Source: Chloroflexota bacterium (GTDB taxonomy: Bacteria; Chloroflexota; UBA6077; FW602-bin22; JACPRP01). Taken from it: 64,000 nucleotides of DNA. Location of the stretch: positions 1 to 64,000 of the forward strand of contig JACPRP010000125.1 in NCBI GenBank assembly GCA_016189905.1. The letters are read 5' to 3'. Positions 654 through 59,364 of the stretch are shown here, in pieces. Position numbers and translations under genes: made by a program. Under the pieces are notes generated by a model. That model made no database searches and was not told where the DNA came from. It saw only the letters and a list, made by a program, of their open reading frames with translations. Within the stretch, counting starts at the first letter, position 1, and each line of letters begins with the position of its first letter.

Positions 654-731
654 ATCCTTCAGCGGAAGGACCCGATCGAGCGGGCTAAGGCCATCCTTCA
701 GCGGAAGGACCCGATCGAGCGGGCTAAGGCC
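654..731. repeat. two perfect tandem copies of a 39-bp unit containing a CCTTCAGCGGAAGG palindrome
   Basis: atccttcagcggaaggacccgatcgagcgggctaaggcc at 654-692 and 693-731. Confidence 0.95.
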
Positions 732-12896: not shown

Positions 12897-13028
12897 TCGC
12901 GATAGGTGTGGCAGGCGCATTCACCGTCCTTCTGCGGAAGGATGTATCCTTCTGCGGAAGGACAAAGGGCGCAACGAAATACTGGGAGGCACTGTCCCTC
13001 TGCAGAAGGGCAGTGAACCCTATCGCGA
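12897..13028. repeat. MITE-like palindromic element, about 132 bp
   Basis: 10-bp perfect inverted ends tcgcgatagg/cctatcgcga; internal palindromes tccttctgcggaagga at 12927-12942 and 12947-12962 and cactgtccctctgcagaagggcagtg at 12990-13015. Confidence 0.75.
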
Positions 13029-14275: not shown

Positions 14276-14414
14276 CACGAGTTTATGTCAACCGCAAAGA
14301 GCGAAAAGCCCAATACATCGAAGCAACTGTTATTATCGGGGCAAAGGGCGCAAAGGTCTTTTGTGTTTTCCTTGCGCTCTTTGTGATCTTTGCGGTGAAA
14401 CGACGTGCTACAGT

Positions 14415-14511
14415 TATAGCAGTTTGCAAAGGGTTTTGGCTAGCGGAGCAGCCACCGATATACCGAGCGTATGCAATGTAGCGCGGGGGCTTGTCCCCGC
14501 GCTACATTGCA
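14415..14511. repeat. copy of the tatagcagtttgca / gtagcgcgggggct dispersed repeat ending in a strong hairpin
   Basis: near-identical to 39713-39790; hairpin arms tgcaatgtagcgcgggg 14472-14488 / ccccgcgctacattgca 14495-14511. Confidence 0.85.
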
Positions 14512-15569: not shown

Positions 15570-15659
15570 AAGGCGAAGTTAGCTCACCTCCCATCCTAAT
15601 TTTACCGCGTTTCGATCGCTAACACTATGGTGGTTACCGATAGGTCGAGCGTAGCAAAC

Positions 15660-15725
15660 GTAGCGCGGGGGCTCGTCTCCGCTCACCCCCCGGCCGGGCT
15701 GAGCGGAGACGAGCCCCCGCGCTAC
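15660..15725. repeat. 26-bp-arm perfect hairpin of the gtagcgcgggggctcg family
   Basis: gtagcgcgggggctcgtctccgctca (15660-15685) and its exact reverse complement (15700-15725). Confidence 0.9.
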
Positions 15726-16094
15726 AAGCACCACACCTTCTCGAAGAAGGGGCACGTTTCTTGCAGTAGAAGGCGACTAGAGCGTTTTGCGTTAGGATAT
15801 GATACTCTGCCCAAGGCAACCACCGAGGGATTGTCCCTACGCCGCCCGGGCGAACGCTAAACCTATCGCAAATCCCTTTAATGGAAACCAGCCGAGCGTC
15901 GCTCAAGAGATGATCGACGACGATTGTGGCGCAGAAGGCCACACATTTGACCTGATGGAGCACAGACACTGACCACGATATTCCCGCCCGATCCACGCCG
16001 GCGACGGCGTTCTGCAAGAATATTTGAAAGCGCATGGGGCACAAGGGCCATCGCGAAGCCGCTTCTTGTCGGCCTCGGCGCTCTGGCCATCATT

Positions 16095-26295: not shown

Positions 26296-27174
26296 TCAGC
26301 GCGATGTTAACGTAAGCTGTCGCAGACTAGCCACGGCGGGCTCATCCGCGACGACGGTCAGTCCCGAGTGGCGCTGGAGCGCCGACGCCGGAACGTCGGA
26401 CGTGATATCTCCTTCCAGAGCCCTCGCAAGGATTCGCGCCTTTTTCCCGTCGGACGCGAGCAGCAGGATTCGACGCGCCTCCATTATCGTACCGATGCCC
26501 ATGGTCAAAGCAAAACGGGGAACCGCCGTGGCATCGGCAAAGTAGATGCTGTTATCCGCCAGCGTCCGTTCTGTCAGCTTCACCAGTCGCGTTCTTGCAT
26601 CGAAGGGCGAGCCCGGCTCGTTGAAGGCGATGTGGCCGTTGTGCCCGATGCCCAGGATGGCCAGATCGATGCCGCCGGCCCGACGAATCTTACGCTCGTA
26701 GCCATGGCATTCCTCGTCAGCGTCTGGCGCTGCACGACCAGGGCACCTTTTTTGATTTTGCGCCCCACCAGCCCGCTTCGGAAAGGGGAATTCTTGGGGG
26801 TGTCCCCCAAGCCCCCGCACTGACGGGGCAGACGCCAGGGAATCGAGCAGGTTGATATTCTCGGGATGAAGGTTCACTCGATCGAAGAGCTCCCGGCGCA
26901 TGTAGGCGGCGAAGCTTCCGGGATGCTCCGCGGGAATGCCATAGAACTCGTCAAGATTGAACGTCGTGACGCCGGCGAAATCGACCTCACCTTCCTCGTA
27001 CAGATGCCTCAGTTGGCGGTACATGCCGAGAGGGGTGCGCCCTGTCGGCAGGGCAAGGACCGCTCGTGGATTATCGCGAAGCTCCTTGGCGACGATCAGC
27101 GCCGCCACCTTCCCCAGGTCATCGGCATCGCCGACGACGATCAAGCGAAACCCGTATTTCATGCCGCGATGCAC
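26296..27174 (-). CDS. nagB: glucosamine-6-phosphate deaminase with an in-frame ~35-aa insertion
   Basis: LALPTGRTPLGMYRQL, TTFNLDEFYGI, PENINLLD, ILGIGHNGHIAFNEPGSPF; insertion between LLD and APDADEEC. Confidence 0.9.
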   Translation of the reverse strand: MHRGMKYGFRLIVVGDADDLGKVAALIVAKELRDNPRAVLALPTGRTPLGMYRQLRHLYEEGEVDFAGVTTFNLDEFYGIPAEHPGSFAAYMRRELFDRVNLHPENINLLDSLASAPSVRGLGGHPQEFPFPKRAGGAQNQKRCPGRAAPDADEECHGYERKIRRAGGIDLAILGIGHNGHIAFNEPGSPFDARTRLVKLTERTLADNSIYFADATAVPRFALTMGIGTIMEARRILLLASDGKKARILARALEGDITSDVPASALQRHSGLTVVADEPAVASLRQLTLTSR

Positions 27175-27176
27175 GG

Positions 27177-28928
27177 TTAGAAACCTTCTAGTCCATGGCC
27201 AAACGGAAACAGGCCAGGCAAAGAAATCGGTAGCTTCCCACTCGGCTCGTACTCGCCGAACAACAAGTCTACCGCCGCCTCCAGCGCCACCGGCGAGTCG
27301 CCATAAGAAGCCACATAGCAGGTGGCCGAGGGAAACGAAATGAGATCGTAGGGATTTCTCACAGCCAGCACGACCGTGGGCTTGCCAAGCTCCAGGGTCT
27401 TTCGAACTAACGCCGCCTGCTCATAGATGATATGCGCATCCCTGGTCACGACCACCATCACATCACATTCCTCGGCGAATTTTGCAAGCGCCGGTTTGCC
27501 GTCTTGCGGCGCGACGTCAATCGCCAGGTAGCTCACGGCAGAATGACGTTTGCTCAAGAGCTTCACCATCGATCCGTCGTCACACGCGTCGTCCTCGACC
27601 GGGGAGAGACACGCGCGGGTGAACTCGACGAGCCCGAGCCGCTCACCGTTGCGCAGGCATAGAGGCAGCAAACCGCCACCGTTCTTCACCAGCGTTATCG
27701 ACCTTCGCGCCACGTCCCGCGCCAACCTCCGGTGCTCCTCAAGAGACCAACTGGCAAAATCCATACCGTGGGCCTGGATTCCCGTCCTTTCAGGAAGAAC
27801 GGGAATGACGGGTGGGGGGGCTTCAAGGGGCCAACTGGCAGCGTTCGTACCGTTGGGGGCCTCGCTCAAGGCGAAGCTGGTGAGACGGGCTTTTGCGGCG
27901 AGGATCCTCGCGACGGAGGCATCGACGGCATCCACCGGGATTTGCCCCGCCTTTACCGCTCGCAAAAGCCCCTCAAAGACTTCGACGTTTTCATCCAGCC
28001 TGCCCAGCGTCAGGACGATGTCACTTCCCGATTGGATGGCGGCTATCGCCGCCTCGGCCAGCGAGTAGCGCTCGGCTATCGCCCGCATCACTATGGCGTC
28101 GGTGATCACGATGCCAGCGAACCCCATCTCGCGACGGAGAACGCCAGTAATGATCTCAGGGCTGACGGTCGCAGGCAAATGGTCGCTCGCGAGGGCCGGG
28201 AACACCGCGTGCGCGGTCATCACCATATCGACCCCATTCGCAATCGCCTCACGAAAAGGGTGCAAATCGACTTCGTTAAGCAGATCTCGACTGCGAAGAA
28301 TGACTGGCAGCCCGAGATGGGAATCGACATTGGCGCCGCCGTGGCCAGGGAAGTGCTTCGCCGTCGTGACGATGCCGCCGCTGCCCAGAGCCCTGATGAC
28401 GGCAACACCCATCTCCGCGACGAGAGAAGGCGAATCGCCGAACGATCTGATCCCAATGACCGGGTTAGATGGCTCAGAGTTCACGTCGAGGACTGGCGCG
28501 AAGTTCGTGTTGATCCCGACCGTGCGCATATCCCGCGCGGTGGCCAGAGCACAGGCTACCGCGTGTCGAGCGTCGCGGGTCGCGGCGAGCGCCATCGCGC
28601 TGGGCATAACGGTCGCGCTGGCCCTCAGACGATTCACGGTTCCGCCTTCCTGATCCACCGCGACGAACATAGGGAGCCCCGTTTCCGAGACGGAAAGCTG
28701 TTGGAGACCAGCGGTCAAAATGGCAACCTGCCCCGGATTCGCGATATTCCCCTGTGACAGCATCACGCCTCCCAGGTGGCACTGGCCGACCATAGCCGCC
28801 ACTTCTGGCGCCAGGATTGGGCCAGGAAACCCGGCGACCAGCATCTGGCCGATCTTCTGCTCGAGGAATAGCTCGCTCAGCTTATTCCGAATCCGCGCTT
28901 CTCTCAAAGAAGCATCGACATCGATCAT
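27177..28928 (-). CDS. GH3 beta-N-acetylhexosaminidase (NagZ-like) with C-terminal domain
   Basis: KHFPGHGGANVDSHLGLPV, FVAVDQEGGTVNRLR, FAGIVITDAIVMRAI. Confidence 0.9.
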   Translation of the reverse strand: MIDVDASLREARIRNKLSELFLEQKIGQMLVAGFPGPILAPEVAAMVGQCHLGGVMLSQGNIANPGQVAILTAGLQQLSVSETGLPMFVAVDQEGGTVNRLRASATVMPSAMALAATRDARHAVACALATARDMRTVGINTNFAPVLDVNSEPSNPVIGIRSFGDSPSLVAEMGVAVIRALGSGGIVTTAKHFPGHGGANVDSHLGLPVILRSRDLLNEVDLHPFREAIANGVDMVMTAHAVFPALASDHLPATVSPEIITGVLRREMGFAGIVITDAIVMRAIAERYSLAEAAIAAIQSGSDIVLTLGRLDENVEVFEGLLRAVKAGQIPVDAVDASVARILAAKARLTSFALSEAPNGTNAASWPLEAPPPVIPVLPERTGIQAHGMDFASWSLEEHRRLARDVARRSITLVKNGGGLLPLCLRNGERLGLVEFTRACLSPVEDDACDDGSMVKLLSKRHSAVSYLAIDVAPQDGKPALAKFAEECDVMVVVTRDAHIIYEQAALVRKTLELGKPTVVLAVRNPYDLISFPSATCYVASYGDSPVALEAAVDLLFGEYEPSGKLPISLPGLFPFGHGLEGF

Positions 28929-30904
28929 CAGTCCGCACCTTCCACGACCACCGCGCCATCCGATCCACTCCGCACTTTGCTCCGGTAATCGGCCCAGAGT
29001 TGAGCTATTTCTCGGGCGTGCGTCTCGGCGATCTCCTCGCCCGATTCGTCGATGTGTGTTACATAGTAGAGGGACGGAACACCTAGCTCAGGCTGCAGAC
29101 GTATGTATTCGAGCCACGATGCCAACGTCGGGCTCGGCCAGTTATCGGTATCGATTAGCCAGGCGGGGGAAGCCGCCCGCGCCACTTTTTGCCGATGGAT
29201 CATGCTTTCCGCGTATCTGTCGTCGGCCGACAGGATGGCGACGTCGTTCAGGCGAAGCATATCGACGACATCCGCAAAATAAGGATTGGCGGTGTGGGCG
29301 ATAATCAGGGCGTCGGGCTTCGTCTGTTTGGCTTCGTCGTAGATTATCCAAAGCAGGCGTCGCAGTAGCTCGACACCCCACAGTCCAGGAGCATCCGCTC
29401 GCATCCTGGCCAAAGGCATGCTGGCGGTGAAATCGATCTTGAAGCCATCGGCGCCGAATTCCCCGACGAGCGTTCTAATGCAGCGCCGCAACCTCTTTTC
29501 ATATCCTGCGCTCGCGGGATCGACGCCGACGGCGGAGCCATAACGATCGACAAGACATTCCTCTGGCGGCACGCCTTCAGGGTCCCAGGCTTTTAGCCAT
29601 AACAGCACACGCCGCCCCGCCGCGCGCTGTCGGGCGATGAAACCCGCCAGGTCGGGCCACTTCTCGAGATCCGGCAAGGGCTCGCCATAGTCTTTCTGCC
29701 ATTTGTCGTCGACGACGACGGTGCCTGGCGTCAGGCCGATATGCTCGAGCCTGGCGACAAAGCGCTCGTAATCATCCTGCGTCGCGTAGCTCTGCGCGTT
29801 TCTCACCGAACCCTCCGCATAGCTCAGGTAGACCTGTTCACCCCAGCCGCAGAAGATGGGCTCGCGCCACCAATCATAAGCAGGCTTGCCGCCGGCAAAG
29901 ACGTAGCCCGCCTCGCGCAAATGGTCACAGTAGCGTCCGATGGCGGAATACTCGTCGTCGGCCCGAAACAAAACGACGTGAGGGCTTTCCCAGGCTCGAT
30001 CGACGCATAGCTTACCCTCGTACCTGAGACTCAGCCCGAAGCCGTTGCCCCCGTTAAACTCGTACTCCGTGAATCCGTTCTCTCCCGGCCGCGCCATCAG
30101 GCCGATGGCCAGCCATTTCCCAGCACGGGTCTGGACAGCGTAGCAAAACGGCGCGGGGGTGAAGAACCAGTTGCCGCGACAGTAGGACTTGTCGCTGCGC
30201 ACGCCGATGGTCGAGGATTCCGTGGGGGAGAAGTGTTGCTTGCGCAGCCCGTTGGGCTCAGGATTGAAGAAGCCAGGGAAGCGCGCCTTAGATCTCACTC
30301 GCCCGTGGAGGCCGCCCTCGTAGCCGGCCTCGATCCACGGCCTGTCAGGACCTACGACAGGCGCGCGGCCGACGAAGCCCTGAAAGAACTCACAATCATC
30401 GACGTGGCCACTGCCCTGAACCAGATAGTAATACTCGATTCTGTCGCTAGTGCAGCGCAGAAAGTACTTCTTGCGCTGCCAGATGCTGCTGGCCGATACG
30501 ATCTCAACCACCGCTGCATCGTTCTCCTGGTGGATAACCGGAGGGCTCGCATCGTAGCTGTAATCGGGCCGGCCATCGGCGTTGCAGGCAGAGAGAAGGA
30601 AGAGGTCGGCGATGGCAGGGCGGAGGTCTGGGGTTACAACACGGAGACATCCTTCCGCGGAAGGACCGGCAGGAGACACGGTGGGACCGAGATCACCGGG
30701 GATACAGAGGAACGACGTGTCAGACGACATCGTAGGGGCAACCGGACGGTCGCCCCTAGCGGATGGGCTCACACCGGCTATGAAAGGCTCCGGTAGATCA
30801 CACGCCACCAGAGTAGCCATCAGGCCGTCAGCTTTGTCGAGCAAGATATGAAAGCTGTCGGTGCGAAGAACAGTGACTTTTTCGCCACGCTCGAGCTGAA
30901 GCAT
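28928..30904 (-). CDS. TIM-barrel glycoside hydrolase, alpha-galactosidase/GH36-like
   Basis: VVVDDKWQKDYGEPLPDLEKWPDLAGFIARQRAAGRRVLLWLKAWDPEG, DGFKIDFTASMP; 1-bp overlap with the GH3 gene. Confidence 0.75.
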   Translation of the reverse strand: MLQLERGEKVTVLRTDSFHILLDKADGLMATLVACDLPEPFIAGVSPSARGDRPVAPTMSSDTSFLCIPGDLGPTVSPAGPSAEGCLRVVTPDLRPAIADLFLLSACNADGRPDYSYDASPPVIHQENDAAVVEIVSASSIWQRKKYFLRCTSDRIEYYYLVQGSGHVDDCEFFQGFVGRAPVVGPDRPWIEAGYEGGLHGRVRSKARFPGFFNPEPNGLRKQHFSPTESSTIGVRSDKSYCRGNWFFTPAPFCYAVQTRAGKWLAIGLMARPGENGFTEYEFNGGNGFGLSLRYEGKLCVDRAWESPHVVLFRADDEYSAIGRYCDHLREAGYVFAGGKPAYDWWREPIFCGWGEQVYLSYAEGSVRNAQSYATQDDYERFVARLEHIGLTPGTVVVDDKWQKDYGEPLPDLEKWPDLAGFIARQRAAGRRVLLWLKAWDPEGVPPEECLVDRYGSAVGVDPASAGYEKRLRRCIRTLVGEFGADGFKIDFTASMPLARMRADAPGLWGVELLRRLLWIIYDEAKQTKPDALIIAHTANPYFADVVDMLRLNDVAILSADDRYAESMIHRQKVARAASPAWLIDTDNWPSPTLASWLEYIRLQPELGVPSLYYVTHIDESGEEIAETHAREIAQLWADYRSKVRSGSDGAVVVEGAD

Positions 30905-39712: not shown

Positions 39713-39863
39713 TATAGCAGTTTGCAAAGGATTTTGGCTGGCGGAGCAGCCACCGATATACCGAGCGTATGCAATGTAGCGCGGGGGCTCGTCCCCCGCC
39801 CCGCCCAGCGGGGGGAGGAGCCCCCGCGCTACGGGTAGCCATATCAAAATGCAAACTGCTATA
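39713..39863. repeat. 151-bp MITE-like element with perfect 14-bp terminal inverted repeats
   Basis: tatagcagtttgca (39713-39726) / tgcaaactgctata (39850-39863); internal gtagcgcgggggctc...gagcccccgcgctac hairpin 39776-39832. Confidence 0.85.
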
Positions 39864-40084
39864 TGAGCACTCTTCGCGGGAGCGTTTTGTCGCACCCTTT
39901 GTGAAAGGGAGGGGATATCTTGACCGCGTTCATCGTTCGGTCGCGTTTGCGCCTACTGCATAGAGGGAGGCGTGAGGTGGAGACGCGCTTCAAGTGGAAG
40001 GACGTCTCCACGCCTGCGCGCTATGTGCCACTATCGATGGAGACCGACGCGGATTTTGAAAACCGCGTCGGTCTATTTGCAGTG

Positions 40085-41661: not shown

Positions 41662-41826
41662 CCCTCCCGGACACAGGCCTCAGGGTTCAGGGTAGAGGGT
41701 TTAGGTTTGAGGGTCCCGATATCATCCTCCATCACCACCCCTCCTGCACGCGGCGGCACCGTGTCATAGCTCCCGCGAACACCGTGGGTAACGGTGTTTC
41801 GCGAAACAGGCGCAAGATGTGTGCCA

Positions 41827-56665: not shown

Positions 56666-56691
56666 CGCCGTTGCTATGAGCCCAGTTTCAA

Positions 56692-56818
56692 CACGGAGAC
56701 ATCTTCTGCGGAAGGACAGGTCCTTCACTCGTTTATTATGGGAACGAGTGAAGGACAGGCAGGAGGTACGGAGATGGAGAAGGTGGACAACCATTATTAG
56801 CTTCTCCGTGTCCCCGTG
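56692..56818. repeat. palindromic repeat related to the element inside the 28928..30904 gene
   Basis: acacggagacatcttctgcggaaggac...ggcaggag...ctccgtgtccccgtgt; nested tccttcactcgttt..aacgagtgaagga hairpin. Confidence 0.7.
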
Positions 56819-58686: not shown

Positions 58687-59364
58687 CTATTTCTTCTTCG
58701 CCTCTTTTGTTTCCCTTGTAGTCTCCCTCATCTTGGCGAGCTCGGTTAGAGCGGCCGTCTTCATAGTCCTTTCGCGCCGTCCGACGATCTCCAGATTGTT
58801 GTTGACGTCCCAGACGCCCGGCACCCACCAGACGTCATCGCCGATCGCGTGTTTGACCCTCTTGCTTGGCACCGTGCCGCTCAGCGTGACCACACCGCCC
58901 GTGACATCTATGCTGACGTCGGAATCGAACGGGACGATGGGATCGGCGTCGATGGCATCGAAGATGGCCTCGCGAATCTGCTCGTCACTCGGCCAGTTTT
59001 CGGCGAACGTCCATCCGCCGCCGGGGTACATCCCCTGGCCGGGGTACATTCCCTGACCGGGATACATTCCCTGACCGGGATACATCCCCTGGCCCGGGTA
59101 CATCCCCTGACCAGGGTATAACGCCTGGCCAGGGTACATTCCTGGGAAAGTGCCGCCCCAGGTCATGGGACCGCCGTAGAAGGGATTGAAGCCGGGCGTA
59201 AAGCCGTAGGGGAAGCCCCCACCGTACGGGTAGCCATAGGGGAAACCCATTCCCATTCCGCCACCCATACCTGCCGCGGCACCCATCGCACCAGGTGCAC
59301 ACCCGCAGGTTGGGCAGGCCATCGAGCCGCCGGACATCGGGTTATTCCCGAAACCGTTTGGCAT
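58687..59364 (-). CDS. BON domain protein with CxxC and MYPGQG tandem repeats
   Basis: ACPTCGCAPG; (M/L)YPGQG repeats; VSIDVTGGVVTLSGTVPSKRVKHAIGDDVWWVPGVWDVNNNLEIV. Confidence 0.88.
   Translation of the reverse strand: MPNGFGNNPMSGGSMACPTCGCAPGAMGAAAGMGGGMGMGFPYGYPYGGGFPYGFTPGFNPFYGGPMTWGGTFPGMYPGQALYPGQGMYPGQGMYPGQGMYPGQGMYPGQGMYPGGGWTFAENWPSDEQIREAIFDAIDADPIVPFDSDVSIDVTGGVVTLSGTVPSKRVKHAIGDDVWWVPGVWDVNNNLEIVGRRERTMKTAALTELAKMRETTRETKEAKKK
59023..59148. repeat. seven 18-bp tandem units encoding GQGMYP-type hexapeptides
   Basis: ggggtacatcccctggcc and variants every 18 bp. Confidence 0.95.

Follow-up and report, generated by a model that had tools for sequence, protein, structure and literature searches.

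In-frame repeat inserts in three consecutive genes

The window analyzed here is a stretch of 64,000 nucleotides from contig JACPRP010000125.1 of a Chloroflexota bacterium (GCA_016189905.1), whose 3.53-Mb draft genome comprises 125 contigs and is 86% complete with 4% contamination. On its minus strand, the window contains an operon in the order ROK kinase, GH36-like glycosidase, GH3 hexosaminidase, nagB, and a GH100-like gene. The nagB, GH3, and GH36-like genes are each a single uninterrupted open frame, with normal coding scores in the home-made codon-usage caller from which our gene calls derive.

The nagB gene (26296..27174, minus strand; PF01182) encodes a glucosamine-6-phosphate deaminase with approximately 33 to 35 extra amino acids between the motifs ENINL and RAAPDAD. 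In the alignment, this segment is absent from 12 of 12 relatives, in which ENxxI is directly joined to PDGAAPD at the insert position, and the solved NagB chains of the PDB in both alignments shown all break into two matches at the insert point. The inserted DNA is a family A repeat element of ~99 nt (26732..26832, minus strand), recognized by blastn to intergenic copies and by pattern census, with the palindrome CTTGGGGGTGTCCCCCAAG at 26793-26811 and 75% identity to the family A element over 99 nt (E value, 2e-13; 26732-26830). Residues 115 to 147 (33 aa) are the translation of 26734-26832. An AlphaFold model based on 13 sequences has a mean pLDDT of 86, with most residues above 90, and falls below 50 at exactly residues 115 to 147, the termini also being less confident; the insert is therein predicted to be an unstructured loop in an otherwise confident fold. 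The catalytic motifs DE and GHNGHIAFNEPG are intact. According to the pattern census, the genome contains about 8 copies of family A (CTTGGGGGTGTCCCCCAAG with its ~99-nt surroundings). One family A copy provides the C-terminal extension and stop codon of a GDP-mannose dehydratase-like epimerase gene (L160:2376-3470; L numbers denote genome stretches around repeat matches), and in L103/L108 (G000:C86:9390-9505) the family is tandemly repeated with a period of 97 nt.

The adjacent GH3 beta-N-acetylhexosaminidase gene (27177..28928, minus strand), identified through PF00933/PF01915 and a match to 6k5j, carries its insert (27748..27846, minus strand) in the linker that joins its N-terminal domain to the C-terminal one. 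These ~28 to 30 amino acids are absent from the aligned homologues, and the DNA encoding them is 92.5% identical over 40 nt to an intergenic repeat of the same genome. Within the insert, the palindrome GGATTCCCGTCC..GAACGGGAATGACGG at 27776-27811, whose tip is a degenerate version of the 16-nt core described below, lies between two diverged direct repeats (CCAACTGGCA...TACCGT) that are ~84 nt apart, and it has one further copy in the genome. The catalytic motifs KHFPGHG..DSH (in the 6k5j match) and ITD are intact.

The GH36/GH31-like glycosidase gene (28928..30904, minus strand), with relatives on contigs of other genomes (Anaerolineae, Chloroflexi, and others) and a weak match to a GH31 alpha-galactosidase, encodes ~57 residues near its N terminus that are absent from the aligned homologues. 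Alignment and repeat matches resolve this insert (30622..30796, minus strand) into a composite of two modules, namely, a CACGGAG-type repeat enclosing the 16-nt core palindrome TCCTTCCGCGGAAGGA (family C, 30650..30665), translated here as PSAEG, and the family B palindrome GTAGGGGCAACCGGACGGTCGCCCCTA (30732..30758), both recovered by pattern census and the latter also by repeat match. Compared with intergenic repeats of this genome, the insert DNA is 89% identical over 45 nt and 94% identical over 36 nt. Counting a variant, family B (GTAGGGGCGACCGGCCGGTCGCCCCTAC) is present in the genome about a dozen times. Repeat matching also revealed an intergenic composite in the window (56685..56786) that is of one type with the inserts of the GH36-like gene and of a GT2 gene discussed below.

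These observations agree with the sequence-only reading that nagB, GH3, and GH36-like genes each contain an in-frame palindromic insert, since homologues lack the segments, whose DNA recurs as repeats between genes of this genome. Its assignment of the inserts to three different families needs correction: approximately four modules are involved, the GH36-like insert is composite, and the tip of the GH3 palindrome resembles the core of the GH36-like insert. A check for inactivity of the operon gave no sign of it: with open frames and with the NagB and GH3 catalytic motifs present, the three genes do not look like pseudogenes as far as can be judged from their sequences. Chance is excluded as the origin of the repeat matches because reversed-pattern controls for the three genome-wide families and the GH3 stem yielded 0 matches in the genome, versus 94, 24, 16, and 2 rows for the actual patterns. 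A known RNA family was rejected as the identity of the repeats, as Rfam gave no family match anywhere in the window.

Distribution of the 16-nt core over genes and spacers

The core TCCTTCNGCGGAAGGA is the commonest of these repeats, with 76 exact copies in the genome, which, like the copies of the other families, are not independent of each other owing to cohort effects. Only 8 of them are located in predicted genes, versus ~82% coding DNA in the census base (the stretches around all core copies, ~570 kb together). In the window, copies were found by pattern census on the plus strand as an intergenic pair 4 nt apart (12927..12962) and as a second pair (655..709) in a 39-nt tandem array of 2.6 copies (638-741). 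This array lies downstream of an rpsT-looking gene (148-417).

At least nine genes contain in-frame repeat-derived segments: the three window genes and at least six others. Besides the GH36-like gene, the core is present in an O-antigen ligase (L133), a GT2 glycosyltransferase (L154), twice in the C terminus of an SNF2 helicase (L156), in two adjacent DUF2298 membrane proteins (L163), and in a short gene whose call is doubtful (L164; the L132 call is likewise doubtful). It is read as PSAEG in the GH36-like protein, the O-antigen ligase, SNF2, and both DUF2298 genes and as ILLRKD in GT2, and a copy with one mismatch at the C terminus of a NUDIX gene (L112) is read as PSTEG. The PSAEG frame is free of stop codons for any N on either strand, and one other frame can give TGA. 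In SNF2, the C-terminal 14 amino acids are two 21-nt units (CTGCG-core-CTGCG-core-CTGCG) that are missing in nine relatives. The same gene (L156:695-3844) has a second repeat match at about nt 547 to 589, similar to a spacer of the window (41662-41826) with a AGGGTTCAGGGTAG tandem repeat. The GT2 gene (L154:9236-10300) contains an insert of ~100 amino acids made of several repeat modules; over 123 nt, its DNA shares 90% identity with a copy in an L062 spacer.

We also considered core-bearing spacers as remnants of split genes. No out-of-frame split genes were found at nine same-strand core spacers, those with the shortest distance to a gene on either side; their flanking genes are unrelated or belong to separate families (one small flanking open reading frame is without family), and they are not halves of one family, so this candidate was rejected. 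Genes are thus avoided and the remaining in-gene copies are in frame, as expected from selection against disruptive insertions; the frame bias is best read as what selection would leave of rare, tolerated insertions.

The core as an exchangeable hairpin tip

The core forms the tip of several unrelated stems. In its most abundant stem family, H1 (GACCGACGCG..CGCGTCGGTC), the tip is either the core or a GTTTTCGAAAC-like sequence; a stem pattern search located an H1 stem in the window with a ATTTTGAAAAC-like tip replacing the core (40042..40073, plus strand). Similarly, the GGGGCG..CGCCCC stem bears either the core or ACCGGCCGGT, and TTTCACCG..CAAAGAGCGC is present both with and without the core. 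Within this genome, TTTCACCGCAAAGAGCGC occurs in a core-bearing and a core-free form, which makes an empty/filled pair; so does the SNF2 gene, with core units here and none in its nine relatives. The core is also nested in itself, with TGCG or CGCA on both sides (L146 and L161).

Identical flanks of 4 to 5 nt occur at the exact 16-nt boundary of 7 of the 77 non-H1 sites (those outside the H1 stem family), versus 0.6 expected when flanks are re-paired. None of 5,000 re-pairings reached 7, and shifting the boundary gave fewer direct repeats. Three of the seven sites lie in tandem units of two genes, leaving six independent loci. Core mobility is only plausible, because many sites (~44) are without any direct repeat. 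Transposition with target duplication covers only part of the core set; other copies are inverted stem extensions. For the copy in the porA-porB spacer (L147), an empty site was not found in the sampled DNA.

Several routes of spread were examined and rejected. The Y1/RAYT transposase (PF01797) gave no match in this 86%-complete genome, the same search being positive in 5 of 14 control genomes, which removes RAYT-driven REP spread. Wide distribution of the core in the class or phylum was likewise rejected: the core is absent from 59 of 60 relatives, with three copies in one genome of the same family. Finally, there is no sign of phage spread, as all viral contigs together yielded only one exact match to the extended core.

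Taken at its fullest, the evidence would make TCCTTCNGCGGAAGGA a 16-nt mobile element that duplicates 4 to 5 bp of its target, prefers hairpin tips and other repeats including itself, has expanded recently within one lineage that lacks a Y1 transposase, and supplies proteins with the in-frame peptide PSAEG; we regard this complete description as a tentative one, rather less than probable. As a rather unlikely alternative, the core may be not mobile at all and instead a functional site, bound by protein or acting as an RNA hairpin tip, that recurs on stems by selection or through amplification of larger repeats. Its copy number does rest largely on a few larger families (the GACCGACGCG stem, the GGGGCG stem, and TTTCACCG..CAAAGAGCG). 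However, direct repeats at the exact boundary, self-nesting with TGCG/CGCA duplication, and the presence of the core in unrelated coding sequences fit insertion better. Nor do the numbers of core-bearing spacers that are convergent, divergent, or same-strand (22/23/35) suggest terminators, and a terminator function was set aside, as convergent spacers are not clearly enriched.

Origin of the inserts

The account that we consider probable is that several palindromic families mostly enter spacers and each other, and that the inserts in genes are separate, tolerated survivors. Short palindromic repeat families, with the 16-nt core as the commonest, would move or be copied mainly into intergenic DNA and into each other, and occasionally one copy or a nested composite would enter a gene. 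To be kept, such a copy would need a total length divisible by three, no stop codon, and a position in a surface loop, linker, or terminus that tolerates it; translation would then give an unstructured extra segment, and the inserts of nagB, GH3, and the GH36-like gene would be three separate survivors. This account builds on the observations that the inserts match repeats of the genome and are extra relative to homologues, that the reading frames are intact, that genes are depleted of copies, and that some 16-nt copies have 4- to 5-bp direct repeats at their flanks. To these it would add transposition as the copying route, survivorship behind the frame bias, and neutrality of the inserts.

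Clustering counts against separate survivors: with three consecutive insert-bearing genes in the operon and another two side by side in L163, such genes lie closer together than random placement should produce, unless they are common. We observe three adjacent pairs of insert-bearing genes, versus approximately 0.02 to 0.5 expected by random placement. With 9 to 20 insert-bearing genes among ~3,300, at least three adjacent pairs arise in fewer than 1 in 2,000 random placements, and with 40 such genes in about 1 in 90, so that the clustering in one operon is suggestive and depends on an imprecise number of insert-bearing genes. The two DUF2298 genes (L163:652-5319 and L163:5323-7797) carry composite inserts in frame and form a second operon-like cluster. 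A single founder repeat could have been copied to neighbors within an operon by recombination or gene conversion, and the adjacent inserts in L163, of which each has the other as its best match (80% identity over 129 nt), point to local copying there. In the window, however, the three inserts are mutually unrelated (family A; the GGATTCCCG stem; CACGGAG repeat plus core plus family B) and indicate independent events at least there, making local spread an improbable general explanation.

A process that actively favors coding-compatible insertion, one of the two options in the sequence-only reading, is not supported. Each insertion would add a length divisible by three, such as the 16-nt core together with a duplication of 5 nt, and genes would be legitimate targets; the 5-nt duplications in SNF2 and NUDIX do give an in-frame 21-nt unit, and in-frame copies are found in several unrelated genes. 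However, other core copies have 4-nt duplications that add 20 nt and shift the frame, the 5-nt case in L147 is intergenic, and the total lengths of the composite inserts are unrelated. Because the core is strongly depleted from genes, with 8 of 76 exact copies in coding sequence, we do not see a coding-favoring process at work and consider it very unlikely; the genome-wide census did uncover further in-frame coding insertions, but no coding excess. An assembly or annotation artefact of the metagenome bin is scarcely credible, for all that the draft is fragmented, incomplete, and slightly contaminated as stated above, since frames are kept through unique gene sequence on both sides of all three inserts, the repeats recur in many contigs, and the three genes score normally as coding sequence.

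Relation to known repeat systems

Rickettsia palindromic elements (RPEs) are palindromic repeats found in frame in unrelated genes at tolerated sites and also between genes (PMC10969869; PMC2229807). The proposal of RPE-like in-frame insertion holds up, because the repeats are real, lie in frame in apparently intact enzymes, and occur likewise in at least six other genes; as in RPEs, several unrelated genes are affected at tolerated sites. In contrast, RPEs are ~100 to 150 bp long, encode a conserved peptide, and lie within genes in nearly half of cases, whereas here we find a 16-nt core, unrelated composite inserts, and ~10% of core copies in genes. The behavior outside Rickettsia to which the sequence-only reading points is not new as a kind, as intragenic in-frame palindromes are already described in many bacteria (PMC3733652; PMC2229807). 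In particular, PMC3733652 describes REPs of Opitutus terrae, Rickettsia conorii, and others as mostly intergenic, with some wholly within open reading frames, often as dimers or groups and in frame. Unlike the GTAG/CGTC REPs, the core and family A are without a tag, the GTAG of family B is base-paired with CTAC rather than being an unpaired tag, and the genome has no PF01797 match. Because the gene share, the tag, and the Y1 transposase all differ, we do not file these repeats as members of the RPEs or the GTAG/CGTC REPs.

The core resembles the small dispersed repeats (SDRs) of filamentous cyanobacteria in being short and dispersed, with empty/filled site pairs. SDRs reportedly insert into other repeats and into genes, as Elhai is said to have described in 2008. 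According to PMC2884548, these ~20-nt dispersed repeats are thought to be mobile; the core differs from them in sequence and lineage and in being a single near-perfect 16-nt palindrome with 4- to 5-bp flanking duplications at some sites. MITEs (ERIC, Correia/NEMIS, and YPAL) are nonautonomous, TSD-flanked, and sometimes fused in frame to genes (PMC2229807). They measure ~100 to 200 bp with separate terminal inverted repeats, unlike the core, whose two 8-nt arms are the whole unit; family A (~99 nt) is nearer to MITEs, by size alone.

Less expected than in-frame inserts is a 16-nt core that serves as an interchangeable tip, nests in itself, and has direct repeats at its own ends. If a unit of this size with target-size duplications transposes, it would be about as small as possible, which raises the question of which machinery recognizes two 8-nt arms without a spacer. 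Interchangeable hairpin tips would offer a testable route to mosaic intergenic palindromes in bacteria. The genome is also a free-living, nonproteobacterial case in which the fate of a repeat can be traced from spacer to protein, with the same repeats inside and outside genes of one genome.

The window contains further repeats. Three spacer copies (14378-14511, 15636-15726, and 39713-39863) represent another interspersed repeat, TATAGCAGTTTGCAAAGG..ACCGATATACCGAGCGTATGCAATGTAGCGCGGGGGCTCGTCCCC, that includes a large GTAGCGCGGGGGCTCGTC.. hairpin, and an 18-nt tandem repeat GCCGGGGTACATCCCCTG of 6.7 copies (59003-59146) lies inside a predicted gene (58687-59286).
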